Positions 1 to 12,300 of a DNA stretch of 12,300 bases are shown here, piece by piece. A program made the position numbers and the translations under genes. Under the pieces are notes generated by a model that searched no databases, was not told the DNA's origin, and worked only from the letters and a program-made list of their open reading frames with translations. Source of the stretch: Cyclobacteriaceae bacterium (GTDB taxonomy: Bacteria; Bacteroidota; Bacteroidia; Cytophagales; Cyclobacteriaceae). Location: positions 1 through 12,300 of the forward strand of contig JALWRJ010000474.1 of the NCBI GenBank assembly GCA_026994125.1. Direction: 5' to 3'. Within the stretch, counting starts at the first letter, position 1, and every line of letters starts with the position of its first letter.

Positions 1-1803
1 GCCAATGGGGTAGTTAATATTATAACTAAAAACCCTAAAGAGTACGCTGGTCATGAAATTACCATACGAGGTGGTAACCGAAGCCAATTTGCAGTTTCGG
101 CTCGTAGTAGTGCTATGTTGGGTGCTAAGTTTGGTTATAAAATTTCAGGAGAATATTTTACAGGCGAAGACTTTGACCAATCTGTTCAGTTGATTGATAA
201 AGGTCAAGAAACTGGAATTTATACCAATCCTGATAACACCATTAAAAATACAACCGCTGGCGGAACATTATATTTTTTTCCTTCTGATAATATTGAAATT
301 TCTTATACAGGCGGGTTGGCCGTGGCCAACTATGTAAACCAGTCTAATATTGGTCCATTACAGATTAAAGATTTTACGTTTTGGTATCATCAGCTACGTG
401 CTAACTTCAATAATTTTTTAGGAGGTTCTGCCTTTATTCAAGGAAACTATACTGCCGATGATGCCAAAAACACCTATAATCTTGAAACCGTAGCTCGTGC
501 AGTTGCCGCAGGCCAGGATGAGGAAACCGCCATTAAAAATGCCACTTTCGTAGACGCCCCTAAGCGTTTTGTGGGCGAATTTCAGCACTATTTCAATATA
601 ACCGATAAGAATATTGTAACCTGGGGAGCTAAATTTACCAATACACAGCCCAATAGTGGAGGTACCTTTTTAAGTGATGGCCCCAATGGTAACCCTATCG
701 TAATAAACGAGCTGGGCGCTTATATGCAATACGAAAATGAAATGGTTAAAAATTTTAATTTAACCCTATCAGGTAGATATGATAATAATGATATTTTTGG
801 AGGTAGGTTTAACCCCAAAGTAAGCCTGGCATTTAAACCTAAAAACCATAACATCAGAGTAGCGTATAACGAAGCCTATAACAGCCCCCCAATACAACCT
901 GCCTTTGCTTATTCACCCATAGTTACTTTGCAAACCACTACAAACGGTAACGCTCCATTGCCTGATGGGTTGCCTTCGTATCCTGTAGATATGGTATTAA
1001 GAGGTGCTGCTGATACCGGTTTTACCATTATCGATGCCAATGGCAACCAGGTTAGTACAGTTAGCAAACTTGCACCAACCATTTATAAATCTTTTGAAGT
1101 AGGCTATAAAGGCCTAATTGCAAATAAATTATTTATCGATTTTACCTATTATAACACTACAATCACTAACTTTTTAAGCGCACCAACACCTATCAATAAC
1201 CCTGAACTTATTTTTGATGCTAATTCTATTGGTTTTGGAGATATACCTACGGGTATTGGTTGGCAAGATTTAGTATTTAATGGTGGACCACAAGGAACCC
1301 CCATCTCTTACGTTAAAGATTACCCTAACGAATTAGTACTTACCTATTTTAACTGGGGTAAAGTAAAGACTAGTGGTATAAATGTTAGTTTAGAATATTT
1401 ACTTACTAATAACATTTCAGTTTCGGCTGGTTATCAAAGTGTTAACTTAGGCGATTTTGAAGATATACCTAGCTTTGTTACTTCTACGCCAATTTTAAAT
1501 TCACCTGAAAAAACAGCAAGAGCCGGAATTAAATATTCTAATCCTTCAGGCATGTTTTTAGATCTTACATATAGATGGACCGAAGCTTATCAATTTCTTG
1601 GAGCCAGAGAATACCAAAGAGGATTGGTGCCTACCTACACGGTTTTTGATTTAAAAGGCGAAATGCCTATTAAGCCTGTTAAAGGATTAAATGTGGGTTT
1701 TGTAGCCAACAATTTATTTAATTATAAATACCGTTCGTTACCGGGCACCCCATTATTAGGTTTTATGGGTAGTGCTTATGTTCGTTTCGAGTTTGGTAAA
1801 TAA
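1..1803 (+). CDS. TonB-dependent outer-membrane receptor, 5'-truncated by the window edge
   Basis: An outer-membrane beta-barrel receptor that would import a ligand (siderophore, vitamin, glycan or other large molecule) using TonB energy. The reading frame is open from base 1, and its first residues, ANGVVNIITKNP, are the hallmark end of the TonB plug domain, so the gene starts upstream; the first in-frame ATG at 115 is internal. About 600 codons remain: plug end (about residues 1-15), then a barrel rich in alternating aromatic strands, with motifs typical of the family such as RVAYNEAYNSP and a final strand AYVRFEFGK with an aromatic residue near the C-terminus. The ligand cannot be deduced. 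A strong hairpin follows the stop codon, so it is probably transcribed separately from the next genes. Family assignment is secure; the missing N-terminal part may hold a carboxypeptidase-regulatory-like domain, which is not visible here. Confidence 0.92.
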   Translation, partial: ANGVVNIITKNPKEYAGHEITIRGGNRSQFAVSARSSAMLGAKFGYKISGEYFTGEDFDQSVQLIDKGQETGIYTNPDNTIKNTTAGGTLYFFPSDNIEISYTGGLAVANYVNQSNIGPLQIKDFTFWYHQLRANFNNFLGGSAFIQGNYTADDAKNTYNLETVARAVAAGQDEETAIKNATFVDAPKRFVGEFQHYFNITDKNIVTWGAKFTNTQPNSGGTFLSDGPNGNPIVINELGAYMQYENEMVKNFNLTLSGRYDNNDIFGGRFNPKVSLAFKPKNHNIRVAYNEAYNSPPIQPAFAYSPIVTLQTTTNGNAPLPDGLPSYPVDMVLRGAADTGFTIIDANGNQVSTVSKLAPTIYKSFEVGYKGLIANKLFIDFTYYNTTITNFLSAPTPINNPELIFDANSIGFGDIPTGIGWQDLVFNGGPQGTPISYVKDYPNELVLTYFNWGKVKTSGINVSLEYLLTNNISVSAGYQSVNLGDFEDIPSFVTSTPILNSPEKTARAGIKYSNPSGMFLDLTYRWTEAYQFLGAREYQRGLVPTYTVFDLKGEMPIKPVKGLNVGFVANNLFNYKYRSLPGTPLLGFMGSAYVRFEFGK

Positions 1804-1829
1804 TGTACATTTTCTTTGATTTGGTTGAG

Positions 1830-1868
1830 GATATCAGTTGAGAGCCTTTGAGCTCTCACTGGTATTTT
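1830..1868 (+). terminator. Intrinsic terminator after the TonB-dependent receptor
   Basis: An inverted repeat 26 nt after the receptor stop. The inner stem TGAGAGC / GCTCTCA (1839-1845 and 1852-1858) is perfect with a 6-nt loop CTTTGA. Beyond one bulged T at 1838 the stem continues with CAG/CTG and about five further pairs including G-T wobbles, giving roughly 15 pairs (1830-1866). It is followed by TTTT (1865-1868). The T-run is short but the stem is long, so termination is likely. Confidence 0.75.
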
Positions 1869-1888
1869 AAATTTAAACCTTACTAAAT

Positions 1889-2398
1889 ATGAAACCTATT
1901 TTAGCGCAAACAGCTTCTGTTAAACTATCCTTGTTTTTGCTTTTTTTAATAATAGTGTTTAATGCTGTTATAATGCCAAATTTGGCAGGCGATACAAAGG
2001 CCGTGCCCATTGATTTACAATTTGCTTATACCCCTGAAAGGGCATATGAACTCATTAATTCTTACAGCACAGAAACGCGCCATAGGTATATCATTGGTGA
2101 AATGACCATGGACGTAATCTATCCCATTATTTATACACTGTTTCTTAGTCTTACATTGCTTTTAGTTTATCCTAAAAAAGAAAAAATCGCACTTATTCCT
2201 TATATAATATTTATTGCTGACATGATAGAAAATATAGGCATTATTATAATGCTGTATAATTATCCGTCAGAATTACATGGTGTAGCACTGGCAACCAGTG
2301 TATTTTCAACCATTAAGTGGAGTGTTGTCTTGGTTGCTTTTGTGTTACTTGTGGTGGGGCTAATTCTTGCGGCTATTAAAAAACTAAACAAACAATAA
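1889..2398 (+). CDS. Small four-helix integral membrane protein, unknown function
   Basis: A 169-residue protein I do not recognise. It has four hydrophobic segments, about residues 11-30, 73-93, 100-122 and 138-163, with a roughly 40-residue extracytoplasmic or loop region between the first and second, and a basic C-terminal tail (KKLNKQ). Acidic residues lie at or inside helices 2 and 3 (E71, D75; D111, E114, N115 in a DMIEN stretch), which is unusual for a passive membrane anchor and may mark a functional site. Its stop codon is one nucleotide before the acylase start, so the two are almost certainly cotranscribed and coupled. It begins 20 nt after the receptor terminator. Its role in the acylase operon is unknown; it could be a partner or a lipid-modifying or transport component, but nothing in the sequence decides this. 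Confidence 0.85.
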   Translation: MKPILAQTASVKLSLFLLFLIIVFNAVIMPNLAGDTKAVPIDLQFAYTPERAYELINSYSTETRHRYIIGEMTMDVIYPIIYTLFLSLTLLLVYPKKEKIALIPYIIFIADMIENIGIIIMLYNYPSELHGVALATSVFSTIKWSVVLVAFVLLVVGLILAAIKKLNKQ

Positions 2399-2399
2399 C

Positions 2400-4775
2400 A
2401 TGATAAAAAAATTGCTAGCAGGATTATCAGTACTTATAGCAATTATATGTATTGCTATTTACTTTTTCTTACAATCCGGGATGCCTTCTTATGGAGGCGA
2501 AAAAAAAATTGTTGGTCTGAAAAGTGAAGTTGAAATAATCTTTGATCACTATGCTATACCCCATATTTATGCAAAAAATGCCGAAGATGCTTACACAGCC
2601 TTAGGTTATGTGCATGCGCAAGAGCGCCTTTTTCAGATGGAAATGGTACGGAGGCTTGCTTCTGGTAGAATGTCTGAAATTTTAGGGAAAGACCTGCTAG
2701 ATGTAGACGTGTTTTTTCGAACTATGGGCATTCGCAAATCTGCGGAAAAATCTGCAGAAAGATTAAATAAAATGACTGACTCTCCTGTTAGAAAGCATGC
2801 ACTTGCGTACTTAGCAGGAGTTAACCAGTTTGTTAATAATGGAAGCACCCCATTGGAGTTCAAACTATTGGGCATTCCGAAAGCCCATTTTACCTTAACA
2901 GATATTTACACGGTAATTGGTTATACTACGTTTGGTTTTTCAAATGCCGCTCCTGCTACCCCTGCCATTACTAGAATGTATCAAAAATATGGCAACGACT
3001 ATATGAAAGATTGGAATGTGGACCCTGTTAATACAGTACAAGATACTGTTGATCTTTCGCAAACCGTTGCGATCCAGGCAATTTTTGATAAGGTAAAAGA
3101 GTATGCTATGTTTCCTATAAAAATGGGTAGCAATGCATGGGTGGTGGCTCCTAAAAAATCGAAATCGGGCAAAGTTATTTTGGCCAACGATACACATATA
3201 TTTTTTGCACAACCTTCTACCTGGTTTGAAGCTCATATAGAATATCCAGGATTTTCTTTTTATGGCAATTACTTAGCCGGGGTTCCATTTGGGTTTGTTG
3301 GGCATAACCCTGCAGTTGCATGGGGCTTAACAATTTTTCCTGTAGATAATATGGATCTGTACGCAGAAAAACAAAATCCTCAAAACCCCAATGAGCTCTG
3401 GGTAAACGACCACTGGCAGGTTGTTAATATATACCATGAACAAATTAAAATAAAAGACCAGCCTGACACTACGATTACCATACGTATGTCGCGCCATGGG
3501 CCTATGATTAATCATTTGCTAAAAGGTAAGGATAAAAAGCAACCATTATCCGTTCGTTGGGTGTATAACGAAATGCCCACTACGGTTTTAGAAGCAGCTT
3601 ATGAATTAAACCACGCTACAAATATAGATGAAGCACGCCACGCTGCTAGCTTGGTTGATGTGCTAGGTTTAAATGTGATGTATGGCGATTCATCAGGAAA
3701 CATTGCCTGGTGGGCTTCGGGTAAAATATCTAAACGGCCACCATACGTAAATTCAAAGGTAATTTTAGATGGAGCAAGTGGTAAAGATGAGCTTATAGGC
3801 TATTACGATTTTAACCTAAACCCTCAAATCGAAAACCCTAAAGCAGGCTATTTATATTCTGCCAATCATAGGCCAAATGCCGTGAATGGCATTAATTACC
3901 AAGGGCATTACACCCCTTTGTCAAGAGCTATCCGTATAAAAAATTACTTGGTAGCTAAAGATAAATTAGGGGTTAACGACTTTAAAACCATGCAACAAGA
4001 TGTTATTTCTGATACCGATAAAGAGGCGGCACACTACTTTGCCAAAAAGTTGGATAATCTTTTGCAAAAAGATACCTTAGGAGGAATCGAACTCTTGGCT
4101 AACTGGGATGGTGATTATCAAAAAGAAGATATTATTCCCCTTATCTATACTAAAATTCAATATTACATGATTGAGAACGGCTTAAAGGATGAATTGGGGG
4201 AGGATGATTTTAATGCCATACTTAATTCGTATTTAGTTAAACGAACTATTCTTACCCTTTTCAAAAACGATACCTCCCTATGGTGGGATAACATCAACAC
4301 CCCGGAAAAAGAAACCTTTGATGATATATTGGTTACCTCGTACCGCCAGTCTATGACCGACTTAAAGACCCAGTTGGGCGAAGACAAAGCAAACTGGAAA
4401 TGGGGTGATGTGCATACGCTAACCCATGTACACCCTATTGGAAAAAAGAAACCTTTTGATAAGCTCTTTAATGTAGGGCCTTTTCCTATGCCGGGTTCCA
4501 ATGCGGTATTAAACAAACAGGCTTTTAAATTAAATGCCATAGGTAAATATGAAGTGTTCATTGGGCCTGCTCTTAGAATTATCCACGATTTTAATCAGCC
4601 TAATAACTCATTAGGTATTAACCCCACAGGGCAATCCGGTCATGTGATGAGTGCCCATTATGATGACCAGGCGCTAATGTATAACCAAGGGTTGTATCGC
4701 AAACAAATGACCGACAGCTTGGAAATTGAAGAAAATAAAATGGGCACATTACTCCTAACTCCTACTTACGAATGA
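2400..4775 (+). CDS. Penicillin acylase family protein (Ntn amidohydrolase)
   Basis: A 791-residue Ntn hydrolase of the family that includes penicillin G/V acylases, cephalosporin acylases and acyl-homoserine-lactone acylases; such enzymes cleave an amide to release a carboxylic acid and an amine. Residues about 4-24 form a hydrophobic signal or anchor helix, placing the enzyme in the periplasm or on the membrane. The alpha chain carries the family pattern around IFDHYAIPHIYAKNAEDAYTALGYVHAQERLFQME. The autocleavage site is at GSNAW with Ser244 as predicted new N-terminal nucleophile, followed by NDTHI, the HNPAVAWG segment and SANHRPN, whose Asn489 (about position 246 of the mature beta chain) fits the oxyanion Asn. 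All expected catalytic residues are present, so it should self-process and be active. It starts 1 nt after the membrane-protein stop and overlaps the next gene by ATGA. Substrate is undetermined. Confidence 0.9.
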   Translation: MIKKLLAGLSVLIAIICIAIYFFLQSGMPSYGGEKKIVGLKSEVEIIFDHYAIPHIYAKNAEDAYTALGYVHAQERLFQMEMVRRLASGRMSEILGKDLLDVDVFFRTMGIRKSAEKSAERLNKMTDSPVRKHALAYLAGVNQFVNNGSTPLEFKLLGIPKAHFTLTDIYTVIGYTTFGFSNAAPATPAITRMYQKYGNDYMKDWNVDPVNTVQDTVDLSQTVAIQAIFDKVKEYAMFPIKMGSNAWVVAPKKSKSGKVILANDTHIFFAQPSTWFEAHIEYPGFSFYGNYLAGVPFGFVGHNPAVAWGLTIFPVDNMDLYAEKQNPQNPNELWVNDHWQVVNIYHEQIKIKDQPDTTITIRMSRHGPMINHLLKGKDKKQPLSVRWVYNEMPTTVLEAAYELNHATNIDEARHAASLVDVLGLNVMYGDSSGNIAWWASGKISKRPPYVNSKVILDGASGKDELIGYYDFNLNPQIENPKAGYLYSANHRPNAVNGINYQGHYTPLSRAIRIKNYLVAKDKLGVNDFKTMQQDVISDTDKEAAHYFAKKLDNLLQKDTLGGIELLANWDGDYQKEDIIPLIYTKIQYYMIENGLKDELGEDDFNAILNSYLVKRTILTLFKNDTSLWWDNINTPEKETFDDILVTSYRQSMTDLKTQLGEDKANWKWGDVHTLTHVHPIGKKKPFDKLFNVGPFPMPGSNAVLNKQAFKLNAIGKYEVFIGPALRIIHDFNQPNNSLGINPTGQSGHVMSAHYDDQALMYNQGLYRKQMTDSLEIEENKMGTLLLTPTYE

Positions 4776-6037
4776 AGAAAGTTTTTAAAATTGTTGGTTT
4801 AATTTTAATGCTTATTCTTGCGGTGTTTTTTTTAATGCTCATGCAGCATAAATCATTTGATGAGCTCTATACGGGAGATGAAAAAACTAAAACTGAATTA
4901 ACAAAGTTTAGAACATACCCAACAAAATCTATTTCCCTAAATGGAGTAAACTGGAACTATTTAGATAGAGGAACAGGACAACAAACCCTGCTTATGCTCC
5001 ACGGTATGGGGGGGGCTTACGATATTTGGTTTCAACAAATTAATGCGTTAGCATCAGATTTTAGAATTATAGCTGTAACCTATCCGCCTACCCGGTCGTT
5101 GGATGAACTCACTGCTGGAATAATAGAGATTTTAGACCGAGAAGGGATTGAAAAAACAAATATAATAGGTACTTCATTGGGGGGCTATTTAACCCAGTTT
5201 CTGTTAAAGCATTTCCCTAACAGGTTGGAGAAAGTAATTATTGCCAACTCGTTTCCTCCTAATCATCAGCTTTTAGCTAAAAATGGAAACTTAGCTAAGG
5301 TAGTGCCGTATGTGCCAGAATGGCTTTTAATGAAAATTTTTCGCAAAAACATTAAAACAAAGGTGGTGCCGGCAGCCAATAATAACCCTTTAGTAAAAGC
5401 TTACCTGCTCGAGCAAGACTATGGGCTTATGAGCAAGGAGCAGTTTGTAGGAAGGCTGCAATGTGTTTTACAGTATTTCGAGCCTGCCCCTGCCAATTCC
5501 ATTACCCAAGATGTACTCATCATTGAATCGGATAATGACCCATTGATTCCACCTGATTTACGCGATAGCCTTAAAATGTTCTATCCAACAGCGCAAATTC
5601 ATACTTTTCATAACACGGGCCATTTTACCTATTTAAACAAGCCCAACGAATATACTAATGTAATACGTGCTTTTTTGTTAGGTAGCAATGGGCAAGCTAT
5701 ACATGCTATTAAATCATTAATTAATAAATTCTATTTTAAAGGGCGTAAAGAAGGAAATGTGCAACTATTGGCAACAGCTTTTGATGAAAACGCATCCTTA
5801 ATCACTGTTAAAAATAACGAAGAAATAGTAACTTCAATAGCCGACTACCTAAAAATGGTTGGAGCAAAAGGGAGCGTTACCTGCAAAACAGAAATACTTA
5901 CCATTAATGTAGCAGGTACTATTGCCATGGCAAAAACAAGGTTCGATTACGGGCCGGTAGCTTATATCGACTTTCTTATGCTTGAAAAGCGAAACGATAC
6001 CTGGAAAATTAAATTGAAATTATATATAAAAGAATAA
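4772..6037 (+). CDS. Membrane-anchored alpha/beta hydrolase fused to a C-terminal NTF2-like domain
   Basis: A 421-residue protein in three parts. Residues about 5-24 are a hydrophobic N-terminal anchor with no lipobox. Residues about 55-300 are an alpha/beta hydrolase: LHGMGG oxyanion region (His77-Gly78), nucleophile elbow GTSLGG with Ser135, acid Asp256 in the ESDNDPLIP segment, and His284 in NTGHF, so the triad is complete. Residues about 307-421 do not belong to the hydrolase fold and look like an NTF2/SnoaL-like cone (resembling the putative lumazine-binding group): a helix pair, then FDENASLI, then a run of beta strands ending in TWKIKLKLYIKE. The start overlaps the acylase stop as ATGA, implying translational coupling. 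The hydrolase may be an esterase or lipase working on the same compound or on the acylase product; the extra domain may bind ligand or dimerise. Substrate is unknown. Confidence 0.85.
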   Translation: MKKVFKIVGLILMLILAVFFLMLMQHKSFDELYTGDEKTKTELTKFRTYPTKSISLNGVNWNYLDRGTGQQTLLMLHGMGGAYDIWFQQINALASDFRIIAVTYPPTRSLDELTAGIIEILDREGIEKTNIIGTSLGGYLTQFLLKHFPNRLEKVIIANSFPPNHQLLAKNGNLAKVVPYVPEWLLMKIFRKNIKTKVVPAANNNPLVKAYLLEQDYGLMSKEQFVGRLQCVLQYFEPAPANSITQDVLIIESDNDPLIPPDLRDSLKMFYPTAQIHTFHNTGHFTYLNKPNEYTNVIRAFLLGSNGQAIHAIKSLINKFYFKGRKEGNVQLLATAFDENASLITVKNNEEIVTSIADYLKMVGAKGSVTCKTEILTINVAGTIAMAKTRFDYGPVAYIDFLMLEKRNDTWKIKLKLYIKE

Positions 6038-6066
6038 CCATTCTTACTCCTTAAAATTACATCATT

Positions 6067-7704
6067 ATGAAAACTAAAATACTTCCAACTGCCAAAGGAG
6101 CGTACGCATATCCTTTATTAATAAAACAACTATTGGCTCAATCGTTAAAATACGAGCCTAACCGAGAAATTATATATAGAGATTTAAATAGATATAATTA
6201 CTTTGAACTTAATAAAAGAGTTGCCCAACAGGCTAATTTGTTAAACTCTATAGGTGTAAGTACTGGCGATACGGTAGCGGTAATTGATTATGACAGTCAT
6301 CGCTACCTCGAATGTTTTTTTGCCATACCTATGATAGGAGCCGTGCTGCATACTGTAAATTATCGTTTATCTCCCGAACAAGTATTGTACACCATTAACC
6401 ATGCCGAGGACGATGTTATTTTTCTGCACGTAGATTTTTTACCTTTAGTTGAAGGTATAAAAGATAAAATAGAAACCGTTAAAAAATATGTGCTTTTTAC
6501 CGATAATGGCGTAATACCCCCAACAAACCTTTCACACGAAGGAGAGTATGAAAATATGCTCAAAAGCCAGTCTGATACATACAATTTTCCGGATTTTGAT
6601 GAAAACTCTGTAGCTACCACATTTTATACTACAGGAACCACCGGCAACCCCAAAGGGGTTTATTTTACGCACCGTCAGCTTGTACTGCACACCTTGGGTG
6701 GTGCTGTTACCTTTGGCAGTTACGATGCCAAATGCCGGTTTAGATCCAATGATAATTACATGCCTATTACCCCAATGTTTCATGTACATGCCTGGGGCAT
6801 TCCTTATTTGGCTACATTTTTAGGGGTAAAACAGGTATATCCGGGCAGGTACGAACCCGAAATGCTGATGAAATTGCTGGTAACCGAAAAAATTACATTT
6901 TCGCATTGTGTGCCAACTTTATTGCATATGCTGGTAAGCAACCCTGCGGTTAAAAACTACGACCTTTCTAATTGGAAAGTTGTTATTGGAGGTGCTGCCT
7001 TGCCAGCAGCCTTGGCTAAAGGAGCATTAGAATTAGGTATAGATGTAATTACCGGCTATGGAATGTCCGAAACCTGCCCTATTTTATGCACTACTTACAT
7101 CAACGAAAAATATGATGGCTCTATAGATGAGCAGGTGTCTATTAGAACGAAAACTGGAATAGCTGTGCCCTTGGTAGAGCTTAAAATTACCGAGCCTAAC
7201 GGCAATCAGGTTCCTAATGATGGTAAGTCTGTAGGTGAAATTATAGTACGTGCTCCATGGCTGACGCAAGGCTATTTTAAAGAACCCGAAAAAGGAGATG
7301 AACTCTGGGATGGCGGCTACTTGCATACGGGCGATGTAGCTCTTATGGAAGAAAATAACTTCGTACGTATTACCGATCGTATTAAAGATGTAATAAAAAC
7401 AGGAGGTGAGTGGGTGTCTTCCATTGAATTAGAAGGGTTAATTAGTGGATTTGGCCCCGTATCCGAAGTGGCTGTGGTAGGTATTCCTGATGAAAAATGG
7501 ACGGAACGACCTCATGCTATGATTGTTCTAAAAGAAGGTGAAATGGCTAATAAAGAAGATGTACAAACATTTTTACAGCAGTATGTAGAAAATGGAACCA
7601 TCAGCAAATACTCCATTCCAGATAGTATAGAATTTGCCGAAGCTATTCCTAAAACCAGCGTGGGTAAAATTGATAAAAAGAGAATTAGAGCTAAGCTGGC
7701 CTAG
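6067..7704 (+). CDS. AMP-forming fatty-acid/carboxylate-CoA ligase
   Basis: A 545-residue ANL-superfamily enzyme that activates a carboxylic acid with ATP to an acyl-adenylate and then to acyl-CoA in the cytoplasm. Motifs in order: the phosphate-binding loop YTTGTTGNPKG at residues 187-197, GYGMSET at 330-336, YLHTGD with Asp423, the hinge region RIKDVIKTGGEW at 438-449, and the C-terminal catalytic lysine Lys534 in PKTSVGKIDKK. Length and motif wording fit the medium/long-chain fatty-acyl-CoA synthetase (AlkK/FadD-like) group. There is no signal peptide. It lies 29 nt after the alpha/beta hydrolase on the same strand and is probably the last gene of the operon. A natural role is to capture the acid released by the upstream hydrolases and send it to beta-oxidation or lipid synthesis; chain length and true substrate are inferred only loosely. 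Confidence 0.9.
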   Translation: MKTKILPTAKGAYAYPLLIKQLLAQSLKYEPNREIIYRDLNRYNYFELNKRVAQQANLLNSIGVSTGDTVAVIDYDSHRYLECFFAIPMIGAVLHTVNYRLSPEQVLYTINHAEDDVIFLHVDFLPLVEGIKDKIETVKKYVLFTDNGVIPPTNLSHEGEYENMLKSQSDTYNFPDFDENSVATTFYTTGTTGNPKGVYFTHRQLVLHTLGGAVTFGSYDAKCRFRSNDNYMPITPMFHVHAWGIPYLATFLGVKQVYPGRYEPEMLMKLLVTEKITFSHCVPTLLHMLVSNPAVKNYDLSNWKVVIGGAALPAALAKGALELGIDVITGYGMSETCPILCTTYINEKYDGSIDEQVSIRTKTGIAVPLVELKITEPNGNQVPNDGKSVGEIIVRAPWLTQGYFKEPEKGDELWDGGYLHTGDVALMEENNFVRITDRIKDVIKTGGEWVSSIELEGLISGFGPVSEVAVVGIPDEKWTERPHAMIVLKEGEMANKEDVQTFLQQYVENGTISKYSIPDSIEFAEAIPKTSVGKIDKKRIRAKLA

Positions 7705-7716
7705 TGCTTTTTAGCT
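7689..7716. terminator. Possible bidirectional terminator between convergent genes
   Basis: An imperfect inverted repeat spans the end of the CoA-ligase gene and the 12-nt gap: AGCTAAGC (7689-7696) can pair with GCTtttTAGCT (7706-7716), with the pairs interrupted by a short run of T. The stem includes the ligase stop codon. The position between two converging genes fits a shared terminator, but the stem is weak and there is no clean T-tract. Confidence 0.35.
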
Positions 7717-8268
7717 TTACTCCTCTACCCTTATTACACAATTATACTTGGCAAGTTCGTGGGTTTGCTCTTTAAGGTTAAAAGTGTCTTTGTTTTCGCG
7801 CATAGCTTTGCGGTGGTAATCTTTTAACTCTTTACGCAAAATAGACTCGGCAAACCTGCGTATTTCCTCCTGTGTGGTAAGCAGTAGTGGAGGTACCCTG
7901 GCTGGTTTATCGTTATCGCTTTTGGCTACCATCGTAAAATAGCTGGTATTGGTATGTTTAACCGTTTTCTTTTTCACATTTTCGGTAATTACTTTAATGC
8001 CTATAACCAACGAAGTATTACCTGCATAATTTACACGGGCCATCAGCGAAACCAAATCACCCACTTCTACGGGTTGCAAAAAATCAACCGTATCAACCGA
8101 TACCGTTACACAATAATTTCCGGCATGTTTGGTGGCGCAGGCATACGCTACCTTATCCATTAACGATAGTAAAATGCCTCCATGAATTTTACCACCAAAA
8201 TTGGCGTACGAGGGTATCATAAGTTCGGTAATAGTAGTATCAGAATCTTTTGGTTTACGTGCTTGCAT
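7717..8268 (-). CDS. Hotdog-fold acyl-CoA thioesterase
   Basis: A single-hotdog thioesterase of the cytosolic acyl-CoA hydrolase (YciA/Acot-like) group; it hydrolyses acyl-CoA to free acid and CoA. With the start at the ATG at 8268 the protein has 183 residues; the open frame continues upstream to 8361, but those 31 residues are AT-rich low-complexity sequence and the family's core begins right after this Met (TITELMIPSYANFGGKIHGG). The active-site helix region shows Asn23, the GGKIHGG turn (25-31) and the catalytic-type acid Asp38 in LLSLMDKVA, followed by the strand region VTVSVDTVDFLQPVEVGDLV. Residues about 130-183 are a charged helical C-terminal extension. It converges on the CoA ligase with a 12-nt gap, so the two catalyse opposite reactions from separate promoters; it may limit acyl-CoA accumulation. 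Substrate range unknown. Confidence 0.88.
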   Translation of the reverse strand: MQARKPKDSDTTITELMIPSYANFGGKIHGGILLSLMDKVAYACATKHAGNYCVTVSVDTVDFLQPVEVGDLVSLMARVNYAGNTSLVIGIKVITENVKKKTVKHTNTSYFTMVAKSDNDKPARVPPLLLTTQEEIRRFAESILRKELKDYHRKAMRENKDTFNLKEQTHELAKYNCVIRVEE

Positions 8269-8441
8269 AGGAGGAGTTGTTTTGTTAATGATGTGTAAAT
8301 TTATAAGTTTATTAATTACCAAAATACAATAATTCAATTTGCTATAAAATTTAACCTGCAATAATAACGGAGTATAATTTTTTGTTTAAATATTTTTTAG
8401 ATTGCTTACCAATCGTTACCATTGACCTTTATTTTTTAAAT
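8269..8441. other. Divergent intergenic region, thioesterase / radical SAM gene
   Basis: A very AT-rich stretch of 173 bp that must hold the promoters of both divergent genes. Several T-rich segments resemble parts of the Bacteroidota TAnnTTTG element (for example TATAATTTTTTG at 8373-8384), but I found no pair of elements with correct spacing on either strand. Both flanking genes can be extended into it in frame from non-ATG or distal starts, and I regard those extensions as non-coding. Confidence 0.5.
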
Positions 8442-9533
8442 ATGTCAACACTTGCTACTTATTTATCCGATCCATTTTTAGCAAACCTCTATACCCAGGT
8501 TCGAAAAGCCGGTGCTGTAAAGTCAATTTCGGTTGACCTTACCCATAAGTGCAATTTGCGTTGCAATGGTTGCTATTACTTTGAGGAGGAAATGGATAAA
8601 ATGGTAGATGCCAAAGCGGATTTAGATAACGCTTTTGATATTTTTTTAGCGTCTGAAAAAAAGCGAGGCACCAATTTTATAACCATTGTAGGAGGTGAGC
8701 CCAGCCTTAGGTTAGATAGGCTTAAAACCATTTATGATAATTTTAAAATGAACGTAGCCACCAATGGGCTTATACGTATCCCTTACAAAGGCTTTGAGCA
8801 AATGCCCATTGGTGTAGCCGTTTGGGGAAGCAACCAAACAGATGCCGAACTAAGGAACAAAGGCAAGCGCGATTTGTTTAGCATTGCCTTAGAGAATTAT
8901 AAAAATGATAACCGTGCATTTTTCTATTACACGGTTTCGCCCGATAAGAGTGATGAAATTGAACTGGTGGTAGAAAAATGTGTAAATAACGGTAATAAAG
9001 TCCTCTTTAACTACTTTAGCGATACCCATACCAAAAAAAATATTACCGAATACCGGGCAAGCTTCAGCAAAGTTCGCAGCCAAATTGAAAAGGCCATCGA
9101 AAAATACCCTGCAAAAATTTTAACCACCTCTTACTTCAACAAGGTTATTACCTCCGGTAAACTCTATAATCAGGTTTGGGGCTATAATGTGTGTACCAAT
9201 ATTAGTACAAATTATGCCCCCAACCAGGCACGTTTACAAAACGGCAACCCATTTAATCCACATTTCCGTTCGTACAATGCCGATTTTACCACCACCCGTA
9301 GATGCTGTACCGGTATTAATCGTAGTTGCGATTCGTGCTGCGATGCCTGGGAACATTTTTCATGGATAATGATTAACCTGAAAAAACACCTGGGAAGTAA
9401 GGATGAATTTACCAATTGGCTTACTTCTATGTATATGTTTTATTACATCAACCGGCTTATCGAATTGCCCCAAAATGATACAACTCTTATACAAATCCAT
9501 GCCCGCTTAGGCAAAGCTTCTTCCTATGTGTAG
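8442..9533 (+). CDS. Radical SAM protein with a C-terminal cysteine cluster, function unknown
   Basis: A radical SAM enzyme of about 363 residues from the ATG at 8442; an in-frame TTG at 8382 would add 20 hydrophobic residues but ATG is the better start. Cys37, Cys41 and Cys44 form the CX3CX2C motif (CNLRCNGCYYF) that binds the SAM-cleaving [4Fe-4S] cluster, and GGEP at 84-87 is the SAM-binding motif. The middle part (about 120-240) fits the TIM-barrel half. A second set of cysteines follows: Cys251, then Cys288, Cys289, Cys296, Cys299 and Cys300 in RRCCTGINRSCDSCCDAW, placed where SPASM or twitch domains hold auxiliary Fe-S clusters, though the spacing does not match a pattern I can name. 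No peptide-precursor gene or other maturation gene is visible next to it; it stands alone between a thioesterase gene and the sulfur-transfer operon. Chemistry and substrate are unknown. Confidence 0.85.
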   Translation: MSTLATYLSDPFLANLYTQVRKAGAVKSISVDLTHKCNLRCNGCYYFEEEMDKMVDAKADLDNAFDIFLASEKKRGTNFITIVGGEPSLRLDRLKTIYDNFKMNVATNGLIRIPYKGFEQMPIGVAVWGSNQTDAELRNKGKRDLFSIALENYKNDNRAFFYYTVSPDKSDEIELVVEKCVNNGNKVLFNYFSDTHTKKNITEYRASFSKVRSQIEKAIEKYPAKILTTSYFNKVITSGKLYNQVWGYNVCTNISTNYAPNQARLQNGNPFNPHFRSYNADFTTTRRCCTGINRSCDSCCDAWEHFSWIMINLKKHLGSKDEFTNWLTSMYMFYYINRLIELPQNDTTLIQIHARLGKASSYV

Positions 9534-9813: not shown

Positions 9814-10191
9814 TTGGAATACTTGAATAATTGTAAAATAATTAATATATTCAATTTTCAAAAGTTTAAAATTGATTTGAACACTACCATTTCTAACCGA
9901 GAAATTAGCCCTGAAAAACTGGCCAAAATTGCCCAGATATTTCAGGGGTTGGCTTATCCGGTACGCATCCAAATTTTAGAGCTTTTAGAAGACGGAAATA
10001 CATACCCTGTATCTGATATTCTTAAAAAAGTTCAAATTGAGCCATCCCTGCTTTCGCATCATTTGTCAAAAATGAAAAACATCGGCATTCTCGAATCGCA
10101 TCGTGAAGGCCGTTTTATTTTTTATAAACTGGCCATTAAAGAAATAAGCAAAGTGTTCGATTGTATTTATTCCTGTGAATTAAAAATTTAA
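9814..10191 (+). CDS. ArsR/SmtB-type winged-helix regulator with C-terminal CX3C
   Basis: A small DNA-binding repressor of the ArsR/SmtB type. From the TTG at 9814 it has 125 residues. Core: KIAQIFQGLAYPVRIQILELLEDG (about 38-61) is the classic alpha1-alpha2 signature, the recognition helix is PSLLSHHLSKMK (77-88), and the wing is ESHREGRFIFYKL (94-106). The usual alpha3 metal motif ELCVCDL is absent (YPVSDILKK instead). Two cysteines, Cys117 and Cys121, form a CX3C in the last helix; the only other is Cys7 in the doubtful N-terminal extension. There is no in-frame ATG before the core, so the start is uncertain: TTG at 9814, or TTG at 9877 (104 residues), which would remove Cys7. It heads the tusA/dsrE2/lplA-like operon 21 nt before the TusA gene, which suggests a sulfur-responsive (persulfide or thiol) repressor, by analogy with SqrR/BigR; this is inference. 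Confidence 0.82.
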   Translation: MEYLNNCKIINIFNFQKFKIDLNTTISNREISPEKLAKIAQIFQGLAYPVRIQILELLEDGNTYPVSDILKKVQIEPSLLSHHLSKMKNIGILESHREGRFIFYKLAIKEISKVFDCIYSCELKI

Positions 10192-10212
10192 TTAAATAAA
10201 CCGCCAATAAAA

Positions 10213-10452
10213 ATGAGTGATTTAAAAGTAGTGCAAACCTTAGATACCAGCGGGCTTTCGTGCCCAATGCCGGTAGTTAAAACAAAAAAAGCAATCAATG
10301 CTATCGAAGTAGGCGAAATCCTTGAAATGATAGCTACTGATCCGGGATCCATTCCGGATATGGAAGCATGGGCGCGCCAAACCGGCCATGAATTAATGGA
10401 ATCGCATGATGAAGGAGAAAAATTTAGGTTCCTTATTAAAAAAACACACTAA
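10213..10452 (+). CDS. TusA-family sulfur carrier protein
   Basis: A 79-residue protein of the TusA (SirA-like) family, which carries sulfur as a cysteine persulfide between cytoplasmic enzymes. The defining motif LSCPMPVVKTKKAI is present with the sulfur-accepting Cys17 in CPMP near the N-terminus, followed by the expected alpha-beta pattern with GEILEMIATDPGSIPDMEAWARQTGHEL. Full length for the family, with an ATG start and no signal peptide. It lies 21 nt after the regulator and 14 nt before the DsrE2-like gene. TusA proteins serve tRNA thiolation, molybdenum cofactor synthesis or sulfur oxidation; linkage to DsrE2 and a lipoate ligase points to the sulfur-oxidation or sulfur-trafficking type rather than tRNA modification. 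Confidence 0.93.
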   Translation: MSDLKVVQTLDTSGLSCPMPVVKTKKAINAIEVGEILEMIATDPGSIPDMEAWARQTGHELMESHDEGEKFRFLIKKTH

Positions 10453-10466
10453 TAAACCCCACCGCT

Positions 10467-10979
10467 ATGGAAGAAAAACGTAAAAAATTAGCGCTTATTT
10501 CCAGTCAGGGTACCCTCGACTGGGCCTATCCACCCTTTATTTTGGCAACTGCCGCAGCAGCTATGGATTGGGATGTAGGTATTTTCTTTACCTTTTATGG
10601 GTTGCCTTTACTTAAAAAAGATTTTAAAGCATCGGTTTCTCCGGTAAGTAACCCGGCCATGCCTATGAAAATGCCCTTTGGGGGCGATAGCTTTAGGAAC
10701 ATAAATTGGCCGATGCCCAATTTATTAATGTCGAACATGCCCGGCTTCGAAGCCATGGCTACCAACCTTATGAAAAAAACCTTTAAGGATAAAGGTGTAG
10801 CCACCGTTGAGGAACTTCGTGATATGGCCGTGGAAATGGACGTAAAAATGATAGGTTGCCAGATGACAATGGATGTATTTGGCTTTAAAAAGGAAGAATT
10901 TATTGAAGAAGCCGATGTAGGTGGTGCCGCCACCTTTTTAGAGTTTGCTGCCGATGCCAACGTAAGCTTGTTTGTATAA
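10467..10979 (+). CDS. DsrE2-like sulfurtransferase (DsrE/DsrF/DrsH family)
   Basis: A 170-residue protein of the DsrE/F superfamily, which relays persulfide sulfur and commonly works with TusA. The N-terminus (KKLALISSQGTLDWAYPPF, then an Ala-rich helix and DVGIFFTFYGLPLLKK) gives the typical Rossmann-like first half. The single cysteine, Cys131, lies in IGCQMTMDVFGF, matching the DsrE2 active-site pattern of a cysteine followed by a Met-rich MxMD(V/L)xG segment. The middle (about 61-92) is a Met/Pro-rich insertion (NPAMPMKMPFGG, WPMPNLLMSNMPG), also usual for DsrE2-type proteins. No clear membrane helix is seen, so it fits the cytoplasmic kind. It is sandwiched between the TusA gene (14 nt) and the lipoate-ligase-like gene (20 nt), as in sulfur-oxidiser gene clusters. 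Confidence 0.88.
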   Translation: MEEKRKKLALISSQGTLDWAYPPFILATAAAAMDWDVGIFFTFYGLPLLKKDFKASVSPVSNPAMPMKMPFGGDSFRNINWPMPNLLMSNMPGFEAMATNLMKKTFKDKGVATVEELRDMAVEMDVKMIGCQMTMDVFGFKKEEFIEEADVGGAATFLEFAADANVSLFV

Positions 10980-10999
10980 CTAAAAGCTAATGCCTGTCC

Positions 11000-12094
11000 A
11001 TGAACATCCGATGTATTGATGCAGGTAGCGTTTCAGGTTTTCGCTCGCAAGCTATCTATCATGGGCTAGGCTATGCACAAACACAACACACACCCAATAC
11101 CGTAGTATTGGCTACGCCCGAAGACCCTTACATGTGTATTGGGTTTTTTCAGGACGTAGAAAACGAGCTCGATTTAACCTATTGCAAAAACAATAACCTG
11201 CCGGTTATCAGACGCGAAACCGGAGGTGGGGCAGTGTACATCGATAACGGCCAATTGTTTGTGCAGTGGATATTTCAACAAAGTTCACTCCCAAGAAGAG
11301 TGGACCAACGGTTTCAGTTGTTTGTTAAACCACTCATCGAAACCTACAAGTTCTTTGGAATTAATGCATATTACCACCCTATTAATGATGTGCATGTAAA
11401 TGGTAAAAAAATTGTAGGCACCGGAGCCGGCACCATTGGCGATGGCGAAATTGTAACCGGCAACCTGATGTTCGATTTCAATTACAATACCATGATTGAT
11501 GCCATTAATGCGCCTACCCCTGCTTTTAGAGAGGCAGTACGCAGAAACATGAAAAAGTTTTTAACCAACATGAAATTAGAGTTGGGCGAGTTGCCTCCCC
11601 GGGCCGAGGTAGTAAACGTGTACCGCAAAAATTGTGAAGCATGTTTAGGACTTAACTTGGTTGATGGAGAATTTACCTCCCGGGAACTTAAAGCCATGGA
11701 GCAGGCCGAAGAAAAATTTAAGCAATCCGAATGGTTGTTCCAAATAAAAAGAAAAGCACCCAACAACAAACTCTTTAAAATCCACTTAGGGCTTTGGGTT
11801 GGGTACGTGGTGCACCCCTTGCCCCAAGGCGAAATTCGGGTGTTGCTAACCTTGCAAGACAATCGTATTACTGAGCTACAACTACACATGGTAAATAGTG
11901 AACCCATTGGCTATCAGGTGGCCGGGTTGCAACAAGAGCTCACCGGCTTGTTGATGGATGAAGAAATTCTTAGCCGTTCCATCCAAAAACTTGTACCTGC
12001 ACCTATGGCAAAACATTGGTTAACAGCTATTTATACCGTAAAGGAAATGCAACTTAAACAAACCGGGCATGGAACAGTGGCAAGGCGTAATTAA
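11000..12094 (+). CDS. Lipoate-protein ligase A-like protein, two-domain
   Basis: A 364-residue member of the biotin/lipoate A/B ligase family, which transfers lipoate through lipoyl-AMP to a lysine of a carrier protein. The lipoate-binding motif RRETGGGAVYID is at residues 71-82, and NDVHVNGKKIVGTGAG (129-144) carries the lysine (Lys137) expected to bind the adenylate. Residues about 250-345 form a second domain (IHLGLWVGYVVHPLPQGEIRVLLT..., ending LLMDEEILSRSIQKL) like the accessory LplB part, so this is a full bidomain enzyme and not a truncated octanoyltransferase. It starts 20 nt after the DsrE2-like gene and its 3' end overlaps the next gene by 26 nt. Linkage to TusA and DsrE2 resembles the dedicated sLpl(AB) ligases that load the lipoate-binding protein LbpA in sHdr sulfur oxidation; a housekeeping role on dehydrogenases or GcvH cannot be excluded from sequence alone. 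Confidence 0.87.
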   Translation: MNIRCIDAGSVSGFRSQAIYHGLGYAQTQHTPNTVVLATPEDPYMCIGFFQDVENELDLTYCKNNNLPVIRRETGGGAVYIDNGQLFVQWIFQQSSLPRRVDQRFQLFVKPLIETYKFFGINAYYHPINDVHVNGKKIVGTGAGTIGDGEIVTGNLMFDFNYNTMIDAINAPTPAFREAVRRNMKKFLTNMKLELGELPPRAEVVNVYRKNCEACLGLNLVDGEFTSRELKAMEQAEEKFKQSEWLFQIKRKAPNNKLFKIHLGLWVGYVVHPLPQGEIRVLLTLQDNRITELQLHMVNSEPIGYQVAGLQQELTGLLMDEEILSRSIQKLVPAPMAKHWLTAIYTVKEMQLKQTGHGTVARRN

Positions 12095-12300
12095 TGCAAA
12101 GCAAGTGGCCCAATTATACAACCAACTGCAAAACCATTGGTTGTTGTTAGAAGTGCTTAAAATGGGTAAGAACAAAAGAGCCGAAGAGTTTAAGCTTATT
12201 GCCTATCACAAAAGCAAGGATAAGCTAAAAGAACTGATGGAAGACGATGACTGGGATTGGGACAAGAAATACATTTTTGTGTTTGCCGACCCCAACAGTG
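12069..12300 (+). CDS. Unrecognised small acidic/Trp-rich protein, 3'-truncated
   Basis: An open frame from the ATG at 12069 to the window edge (77 codons, no stop), in a different frame from the ligase gene and overlapping its last 26 nt. The protein starts MEQWQGVINAKQVAQLYNQL, then HWLLLEVLKMGKNKRAEEFKLIAY, and has an acidic, Trp-containing stretch MEDDDWDWDKKYIFVFADPN. The alternation of a helix, two strands and a charged helix looks like a small globular cytoplasmic domain; no cysteine, signal or membrane segment is seen so far. I do not recognise the family. The overlap implies translational coupling to the ligase, so it is probably part of the same sulfur/lipoate operon. That it is a real gene is supported by codon use like its neighbours and by continuity to the window end. 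Confidence 0.7.
   Translation, partial: MEQWQGVINAKQVAQLYNQLQNHWLLLEVLKMGKNKRAEEFKLIAYHKSKDKLKELMEDDDWDWDKKYIFVFADPNS

Follow-up and report, generated by a model that had tools for sequence, protein, structure and literature searches.

The 12,300-base stretch of DNA analysed here (the window), which is the entire contig C474 (JALWRJ010000474.1) of a Cyclobacteriaceae genome (GCA_026994125.1, here G000), ends in a tight run of genes for an ArsR-type regulator, the sulfur carrier TusA, a DsrE2-type sulfurtransferase, a divergent lipoate-protein ligase (Lpl1) and the first part of a small protein (U81), with a radical SAM protein gene (rSAMx) upstream. This run is very probably (at roughly 85%) the head of a type II sHdr-LbpA cluster, a set of genes for heterodisulfide reductase-like (sHdr) proteins and lipoyl carriers (LbpA), in a genome of the phylum Bacteroidota that shares its family with metagenome-assembled genomes (MAGs) titled Cyclobacteriaceae. 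As read from the sequence, the gene content and order of the cluster are laid out on three overlapping contigs of this genome and occur contiguously in relatives. In what follows L, G, C and f numbers denote loci, genomes, contigs and families.

The genome is a 2.9-Mb MAG in 602 contigs, 90.83% complete and 1.06% contaminated, of the same family (f1) as G059 and G055. These two are matched to loci L018 and L024, respectively, both titled Cyclobacteriaceae. L018, from the closest relative G059 (listed as G098 in the HdrB1 search), has a DsrE2 89% identical to that of the window. A DNA search of the MAG with L018:11593-19127 returned contigs C243 (locus L123) and C240 together with the end of the window. 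The last bases of the window and C243 have 12 nt in common and the U81 frame runs on across the joint; the gene is cut in the window because the window is the whole contig and C243 continues the frame, completing it as ...NPNSVCEIE-stop, after which a DsrE3-like protein starts. The gene order on C243 is DsrE3-like protein, LbpA1, HdrC1, HdrB1, HdrA, Hyp and HdrB3 (a fused HdrC2B2). C240 shares 258 nt with C243 (3 mismatches), from within HdrB3 to immediately behind it, and takes the order on through the last part of HdrB3 to LbpA2, LipS1, Lpl2 (the second ligase), LipS2, EtfB (1338-2096), EtfA (388-1338) and the start of another protein. The gene after EtfA is, in relatives, that of an HdrD-like protein with some 690-730 residues. 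The HdrB1 of the MAG and that of L018 are 92% identical, LipS1 scores 239.9 bits on its NCBIfam model (cut-off 230), and in L018 the GCV_H domain is found in both carriers and CCG/Fer4 domains in the Hdr proteins. The initial annotation, made from the window alone, had expected LbpA and Hdr-like genes to follow, with lipoyl synthases, in a Bacteroidota-like host, and all of this was found in the genome itself and in its relatives.

A type II sHdr locus is defined by shdrC1B1AHB3 and etfAB in one syntenic cluster (PMC11582611; this and the other papers are cited for the passages covered). The first set lies on C243 and the second on C240, joined to the core through the overlap in HdrB3, and the whole order, both sets included, is contiguous in L124, L126, L127 and L138. 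Because its own contigs and related Bacteroidota carry these genes in the same order, the cluster is type II sHdr by the published criterion, with oxidation of sulfane sulfur to sulfite as its predicted function; we have assumed that type II is equal to Group III of Cao et al. 2018 (PMC6067878). The cluster shares with the type II sHdr-LbpA systems of PMC11582611 the core genes, the fused HdrC2B2, EtfBA, TusA/DsrE-type transferases, LbpA carriers, LipS1/S2 and a ligase, but differs in its Bacteroidota host, in having two ligases, U81 and rSAMx, and in an LbpA2 that lacks the conserved cysteines.

A number of observations weigh against this assignment or parts of it. The window-C243 joint in a MAG of 602 contigs is based on 12 nt, frame continuity and homology. 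DsrE2 scores 205.8 bits on NF047629 (SulfCarrDsrE2; cut-off 210), and LipS2 is the best NCBIfam match for its protein at a score below the cut-off (193 against 270 bits). The four genomes of the same genus that were examined gave no DsrE2, two of them being only 81-82% complete. Finally, a mirror-tree comparison (co-variation of distances; 9 loci, 36 pairs) gave correlations of 0.10 for Lpl1-LbpA1 and 0.17 for Lpl1-U81, supporting neither pairing.

The five frames of the head, with gaps of 21 nt between ArsR and TusA, 14 nt between TusA and DsrE2 and 20 nt between DsrE2 and the ligase, were confirmed on the sequence as first described, as were the 26-nt overlap of ligase and U81, the placing of Cys17 in TusA and Cys131 in DsrE2, and a bidomain ligase, whose AlphaFold2 model has two domains (mean predicted local distance difference test score, pLDDT, 93.3) and finds lipoate ligases as its nearest folds in the PDB. 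For the regulator the family held, whilst the frame as first listed (9814-10191) probably starts too early, since in the close relatives L018 and L019 it opens only at the equivalent of about 9877. The order ArsR-TusA-DsrE2-Lpl1-U81 is repeated in loci titled Cyclobacteriaceae, Flammeovirgaceae, Saprospiraceae and Flavobacteriaceae, and the arrangement in the window is therefore not due to chance. The regulator resembles sHdrR, an ArsR-type sulfane-sulfur sensor of Hyphomicrobium with conserved Cys50 and Cys116 (PMC12423496), in its family and its place at the head of the cluster, but it has no cysteine at the Cys50-like place: from the likely start its only two cysteines are a C-terminal CxxxC pair (DCIYSC; residues 117 and 121 of the long frame), which is also present in other Bacteroidota rows of the alignment. 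It thus lacks the two-cysteine signature of sHdrR, which is to be expected given that many ArsR-type proteins near sHdr are without the two sensor cysteines (PMC12423496). Its score on the BigR model is 43 bits (cut-off 155).

Table 1. Genes in the 3' part of the window (positions of the window; strand as read)
Feature	Position	Strand	Remarks
rSAMx, radical SAM protein, 363 aa	8442..9533	+	ATG at 8442; frame open from TTG at 8382
ArsR-type regulator	9877..10191	+	PF01022 (HTH_5/ArsR) 42.9 bits, over Pfam cut-off; frame open from 9814, likely TTG start near 9877
TusA sulfur carrier, Cys17	10213..10452	+	PF01206 89.7 bits, over Pfam cut-off; Cys17 in SGLSCPMP
DsrE2-type sulfurtransferase, Cys131	10467..10979	+	PF13686 (DrsE_2) 170.5 bits, over Pfam cut-off
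Lpl1, divergent lipoate-protein ligase, two domains	11000..12094	+	PF21948 (LplA-B_cat) 117.2 bits, over Pfam cut-off; catalytic Lys137 kept
U81, 5' part of small gene (about 81 aa in relatives)	12069..12300	+	Overlaps Lpl1 by 26 nt; alignment of 22 members

The conservation of Lpl1 and U81 was surveyed in loci L018-L097, which have DsrE2 and are the top 80 of 518 confirmed candidates; the counts of loci with or without these genes refer to this set. HdrB1 or HdrC1 was present in 45 of these, Lpl1 in 23 and Lpl1 together with U81 in 21; U81 thus stood behind Lpl1 in 21/23 Lpl1 loci as against 0/57 of the others. The two exceptions are L042, in which no room for U81 was seen, and L044, in which Lpl1 runs into an apparent transposase. 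The latter (L044:8580-11237) looks like a decayed cluster head, comprising an rSAMx fragment, ArsR, TusA, DsrE2 and an Lpl1 with a transposase-like second half, and its genome gave no HdrB1 match. Apart from L044, the only Lpl1 loci without an Hdr gene in the stretch examined were four in which the contig ends early (L021, L022, L024, L025), and the genome of L024 does have HdrB1. Lpl1 is missing from 27 of the sHdr loci; the titles of 21 of these name Chloroflexi or one of its orders, those of three Marinimicrobia and those of the last three Euryarchaeota. Among 98 related genomes (the MAG itself included) U81 occurs in the same five that have sHdr; two matches to the U81 model in G061 were set aside on account of stop codons and low scores. 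Trp24, Leu26, Lys50, Leu53, Asp74 and Pro75 of U81 are invariant and Cys79 is nearly so (20 rows). The AlphaFold2 model of the L018 homologue has a pLDDT of 83.7 and gave no PDB match at E<=0.001.

The rSAMx gene, which lies outside the run first described, also seems to be part of the sHdr locus, because it tracks sHdr among the 98 relatives and adjoins sHdr clusters. At E<=1e-20 it was found in six of the 98, namely all five with sHdr (the match in G055 being partial, over 129 residues) and the congener G002; presence in all five has a hypergeometric chance of 8.8e-8 if kinship is ignored. In G002, the roughly 415 bases that follow rSAMx at the end of contig C123 contain no ArsR frame. The sHdr clusters that contain the gene or have it alongside belong to Bacteroidota, KSB1, Marinimicrobia and G118, and its place varies: it precedes ArsR in L003, L020, L021, L037, L083/L126 and L141; in L130, L138, L128 and, some distance off, L125 it comes behind the membrane protein; in L129 (4-nt overlap) and L131 it follows LipS2 immediately; and in L182, L183 and L196 it stands behind Lpl1b, a sister form of Lpl1. 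It was not seen in the examined stretches of L124, L127 and L133, and in the L018 genome it is on another short contig. The protein has a CxxxCxxC motif and a cysteine-rich C-terminus with the consensus RCCTGxxRxCxxCxDxWEHFSW. It scores 26.4 bits on Radical_SAM (cut-off 29.5) and 22.0 bits on Fer4_12 (cut-off 22), the latter being the sole curated cut-off reached. The best NCBIfam match is to PapB-type radical SAM maturases (NF047865), with the radical SAM core at residues 26-102, but at 42.1 bits it falls far from the cut-off of 340 and no precursor peptide was identified.

The genome has three LplA-B_cat matches: Lpl1, Lpl2 on C240 and a protein on C136 that we read as LipB. Lys137 of Lpl1, which we take to be the equivalent of E. 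coli Lys133, is invariant in 21 rows. The GGG of Lpl1 is followed by (I/L)D-xx-Q-x-F-x-QW, with Q85, F87, Q89 and W90 invariant, where housekeeping enzymes have HD-xx-N, and Lpl1 reaches 100.9 bits on TIGR00545 (cut-off 280). A ligase tree was built from 57 rows, including 22 of Lpl1, three of Lpl1b, 15 of type II Lpl2 and six of housekeeping LplA (E. coli and Bacteroidota), with no LipM or archaeal LplA; L129_Lpl2 (the same as L032_Lpl2) and L027_Lpl1 (a near copy of L026_Lpl1) had been dropped and over-long ends trimmed from L030, L184, L189, L195 and L197. Housekeeping LplA formed a branch of its own (100/100), from which Lpl1 was absent, and by both tree and motif Lpl1 is thus unlike a housekeeping LplA. 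Lpl1 and Lpl1b together formed one branch (96/85; 53/75 for Lpl1 without Lpl1b). Type II Lpl2 (100/99) adjoined, at 94/69, a group of 10 (100/99) made up of eight ligases from gammaproteobacterial clusters with short unfused HdrC2-like proteins plus L184 and L197. In the best tree Lpl1 lies outside the sLpl/Lpl2 branch (96/85 and 98/88), although a single clade of all sHdr ligases was not rejected by the approximately unbiased test (p-AU 0.288).

At the outset the setting of Lpl1 had been compared with that of sLpl(AB), the dedicated ligase of sHdr sulfur oxidisers. The context stands, in that Lpl1 is in the same cluster as sHdr and LipS1/S2, but Lpl2 is the better counterpart on account of its tree position and its place directly between LipS1 and LipS2, and Lpl1 is probably a second ligase instead. 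In both respects Lpl2 resembles the sLpl(AB)-LipS1/S2 assembly (PMC10332631), being a neighbour of the gammaproteobacterial sLpl; Lpl1 differs in its separate branch and is not described in the text of that paper covered here. Lipoyl carriers and Hdr genes that follow, a ligase outside the LplA branch and neighbours conserved in relatives are the opposite of what the initial annotation had named as grounds for giving up its proposal. Variant forms of the ligases were also seen. Lpl1b (L182:5085-6128 in KSB1; L183:9226-10176 and L196:12407-13435 in Marinimicrobia) stands after LipS2 and next to rSAMx, and has, as read by eye, an arginine at the place of the catalytic lysine; it may be a pseudo-ligase or a scaffold. 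Lpl1 of L037 is broken into two frames, and in L184:1151-2818 and L197:129-1736 an sLpl-type ligase has a fused C-terminal extension, rich in cysteine and some 150 residues long.

An important consideration is which of the two carriers Lpl1 might serve. PF01597 is over its cut-off for both L018 carriers, and the lipoylated lysine is present in the rows of LbpA1 and LbpA2, including those of the MAG. LbpA is characterised by this lysine and two conserved cysteines, N- and C-terminal (PMC6067878). LbpA1 has both cysteines in 22/22 full-length rows, that of the MAG among them. LbpA2 is without them, having no cysteine at all in 10/15 rows (again including the MAG) and none at a shared position in the other five; it fits LbpA by its lysine and place only. 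It is quite plausible, if a little short of even odds, that there are two dedicated lines, Lpl1-U81 maturing LbpA1 and Lpl2 maturing LbpA2. The Calditrichota genome G105 and the bacterium G504, which adjoin one another among the Lpl1 sequences of the tree, combine Lpl1-U81-LbpA1 with a complete sHdr set and show no LbpA2, Lpl2, LipS or rSAMx in the flanks examined (57 kb in G105, the whole 49-kb contig in G504), which favours Lpl1 as the ligase for LbpA1; neither gave a genome-wide LipS1 match at E<=1e-10, the completeness of both genomes not being established. These two alone remain without the LbpA2-Lpl2-LipS module in the stretches examined, the KSB1 locus L069, considered as a third case, having been rejected when the module was found after its Etf genes (L182). 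Two dedicated lines would also agree with the mirror-tree correlation of Lpl2-LbpA2, at 0.52 the strongest obtained. Against them stand the value of 0.10 for Lpl1-LbpA1 and G118 (f35), which in the stretch examined has LbpA1 without Lpl1 proper or U81.

Another possibility, which we regard as doubtful, is that the type II sHdr cluster is real but Lpl1 is a redundant or scavenging ligase for the carriers of Lpl2, with U81 and rSAMx as passengers. A single sLpl modifies LbpA1 as well as LbpA2 in Thioalkalivibrio (PMC6067878). Clusters of Chloroflexota, Marinimicrobia and f35 (G118, G199) are without U81 or Lpl1 proper in the stretches examined, and the low mirror-tree values for Lpl1 with LbpA1 and with U81 point the same way. 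Redundancy is, however, difficult to square with the constant association of U81 with Lpl1, behind which alone it is found in the survey, with the tracking of sHdr by rSAMx, and with invariant ligase residues that are not those of housekeeping LplA. More speculative still, and on balance unlikely, is that Lpl1-U81 attaches to one carrier a different acyl group, or the same group by another route, and that rSAMx, as a third radical SAM enzyme, modifies the group, the carrier or U81, amounting to a second and hitherto unseen cofactor-maturation line of type II sHdr in Bacteroidota and neighbouring phyla. If this were true, LbpA1 with its two cysteines and LbpA2 with none would carry prosthetic groups of different make, each for its own steps in the oxidation of sulfur.

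Two further explanations concern the cluster as a whole. That the window merely holds a housekeeping set brought together by chance (TusA for tRNA thiolation, LplA for dehydrogenases) is very improbable: both families do include housekeeping members, but the putative LipB offers another LplA-B_cat protein, Lpl1 falls outside the LplA branch, and the sHdr genes directly downstream already refute it. It is just as improbable that the cluster reached the MAG as contamination from another phylum, for instance from Chloroflexota or Marinimicrobia, for which the 70-78% identity of DsrE2 in records titled Chloroflexi, Anaerolineales and Marinimicrobia might speak. Segments further upstream on the contig resemble DNA of same-genus genomes (74-79%), so it is not of foreign origin. 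The loci with the nearest DsrE2 (89% and 82%) bear the title Cyclobacteriaceae, and neither Lpl1 nor U81 occurs, in the stretch examined, in any sHdr locus titled Chloroflexota (21) or Marinimicrobia (3).

DsrE2 matches were found in 12 of the 98 relatives (own included), five of them at 8.6e-81 or better (G000, G012, G055, G057, G059) and the other seven at 1.6e-20 or weaker. HdrB1 was found in all five strong-DsrE2 genomes, the other 93 relatives not having been searched with HdrB1 as a set. In 395 genomes drawn from the phylum, HdrB1 at E<=1e-60 was present in three, the MAG itself and two of another family (f35); in 274 drawn from the class of a gammaproteobacterial MAG there were 17. A Bohai Sea survey assigned 334 of 406 sHdr to 329 Proteobacteria MAGs and required separate HdrC2 and HdrB2 (PMC12345210), a requirement because of which, we infer, it may miss type II. 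In the passages covered of PMC10332631, PMC6067878, PMC11582611, PMC10451225, PMC12423496, PMC12345210, PMC12998232, PMC13029343, PMC13293266, PMC13384644 and PMC11294248, with supplements and subscription papers outside this scope, there was no description of sHdr in Bacteroidota, of the second ligase, of U81 or of rSAMx; the main text of PMC10332631 does not contain 'Bacteroid', its per-phylum figure and supplement again lying outside. The suggestion that the cluster represents a new variant with a partner gene is thus upheld within that literature, Lpl1, U81 and rSAMx all being conserved.

By analogy with known systems, TusA, DsrE2 and the DsrE3-like protein would take up sulfane sulfur in the form of protein persulfides and hand it on to LbpA1 and the sHdr complex (HdrC1-B1-A-Hyp-HdrB3), where it would be oxidised to sulfite, with quinone receiving the electrons by way of EtfBA and an HdrD-like protein in the membrane. 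As long as there is no sulfane sulfur, the cluster is probably repressed by the ArsR-type protein, which would use its CxxxC pair instead of Cys50/Cys116. Lpl2 with LipS1/LipS2 would build the lipoyl group by the known route; Lpl1, aided by U81, would most likely be a second acyl or lipoyl ligase for one of the two carriers, and rSAMx may be a third maturation enzyme.

A variety of other genes were observed in and around these clusters. In L125:10617-11015 and L138:12595-12987, Lpl2 and LipS2 are separated by an extra gene of some 130 aa, for which the MAG has no room. L124:8891-9259 is a 122-aa frame between HdrB3 and LbpA2 that presumably resembles four-helix-bundle proteins. What we read as FadL-like outer-membrane proteins occur near sHdr clusters (L127:392-1825, L069:4117-5391, L126:18391-19737); in the literature covered, lipY of Hyphomicrobium denitrificans is termed a putative fatty acid transporter. 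Just upstream of its cluster, L126:3-668 encodes a ferredoxin-type subunit, in our reading molybdopterin-oxidoreductase-like, that could be part of a sulfite-oxidising enzyme. Acidithiobacillus ferrooxidans plasmids (NZ_AP025161.1:1-4490, L163) have an HdrB1-like gene (53% identity) near GcvH-like and hemerythrin/DUF2249 genes; the stretch examined has no other annotated sHdr core genes and no ligase usable for the tree. Positions 1-8361 of the window encode what we read as the end of a TonB-dependent receptor and a penicillin-acylase-like protein, as well as an alpha/beta hydrolase, an AMP-binding enzyme and a thioesterase, with partial matches in same-genus genomes and no visible link to sulfur.

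Cyclobacteriaceae and Saprospiraceae are usually described as degraders of organic matter. The cluster places a predicted cytoplasmic sulfur-oxidation gene set in genomes carrying these titles, whose role in sulfur cycling may be overlooked. The three conserved genes lpl1, u81 and rSAMx can now be named, alongside two unlike lipoyl carriers of the same cluster, and the building and use of lipoate in sulfur oxidation becomes directly testable there, both in the pairing of ligases with carriers and in the task of the third radical SAM enzyme.

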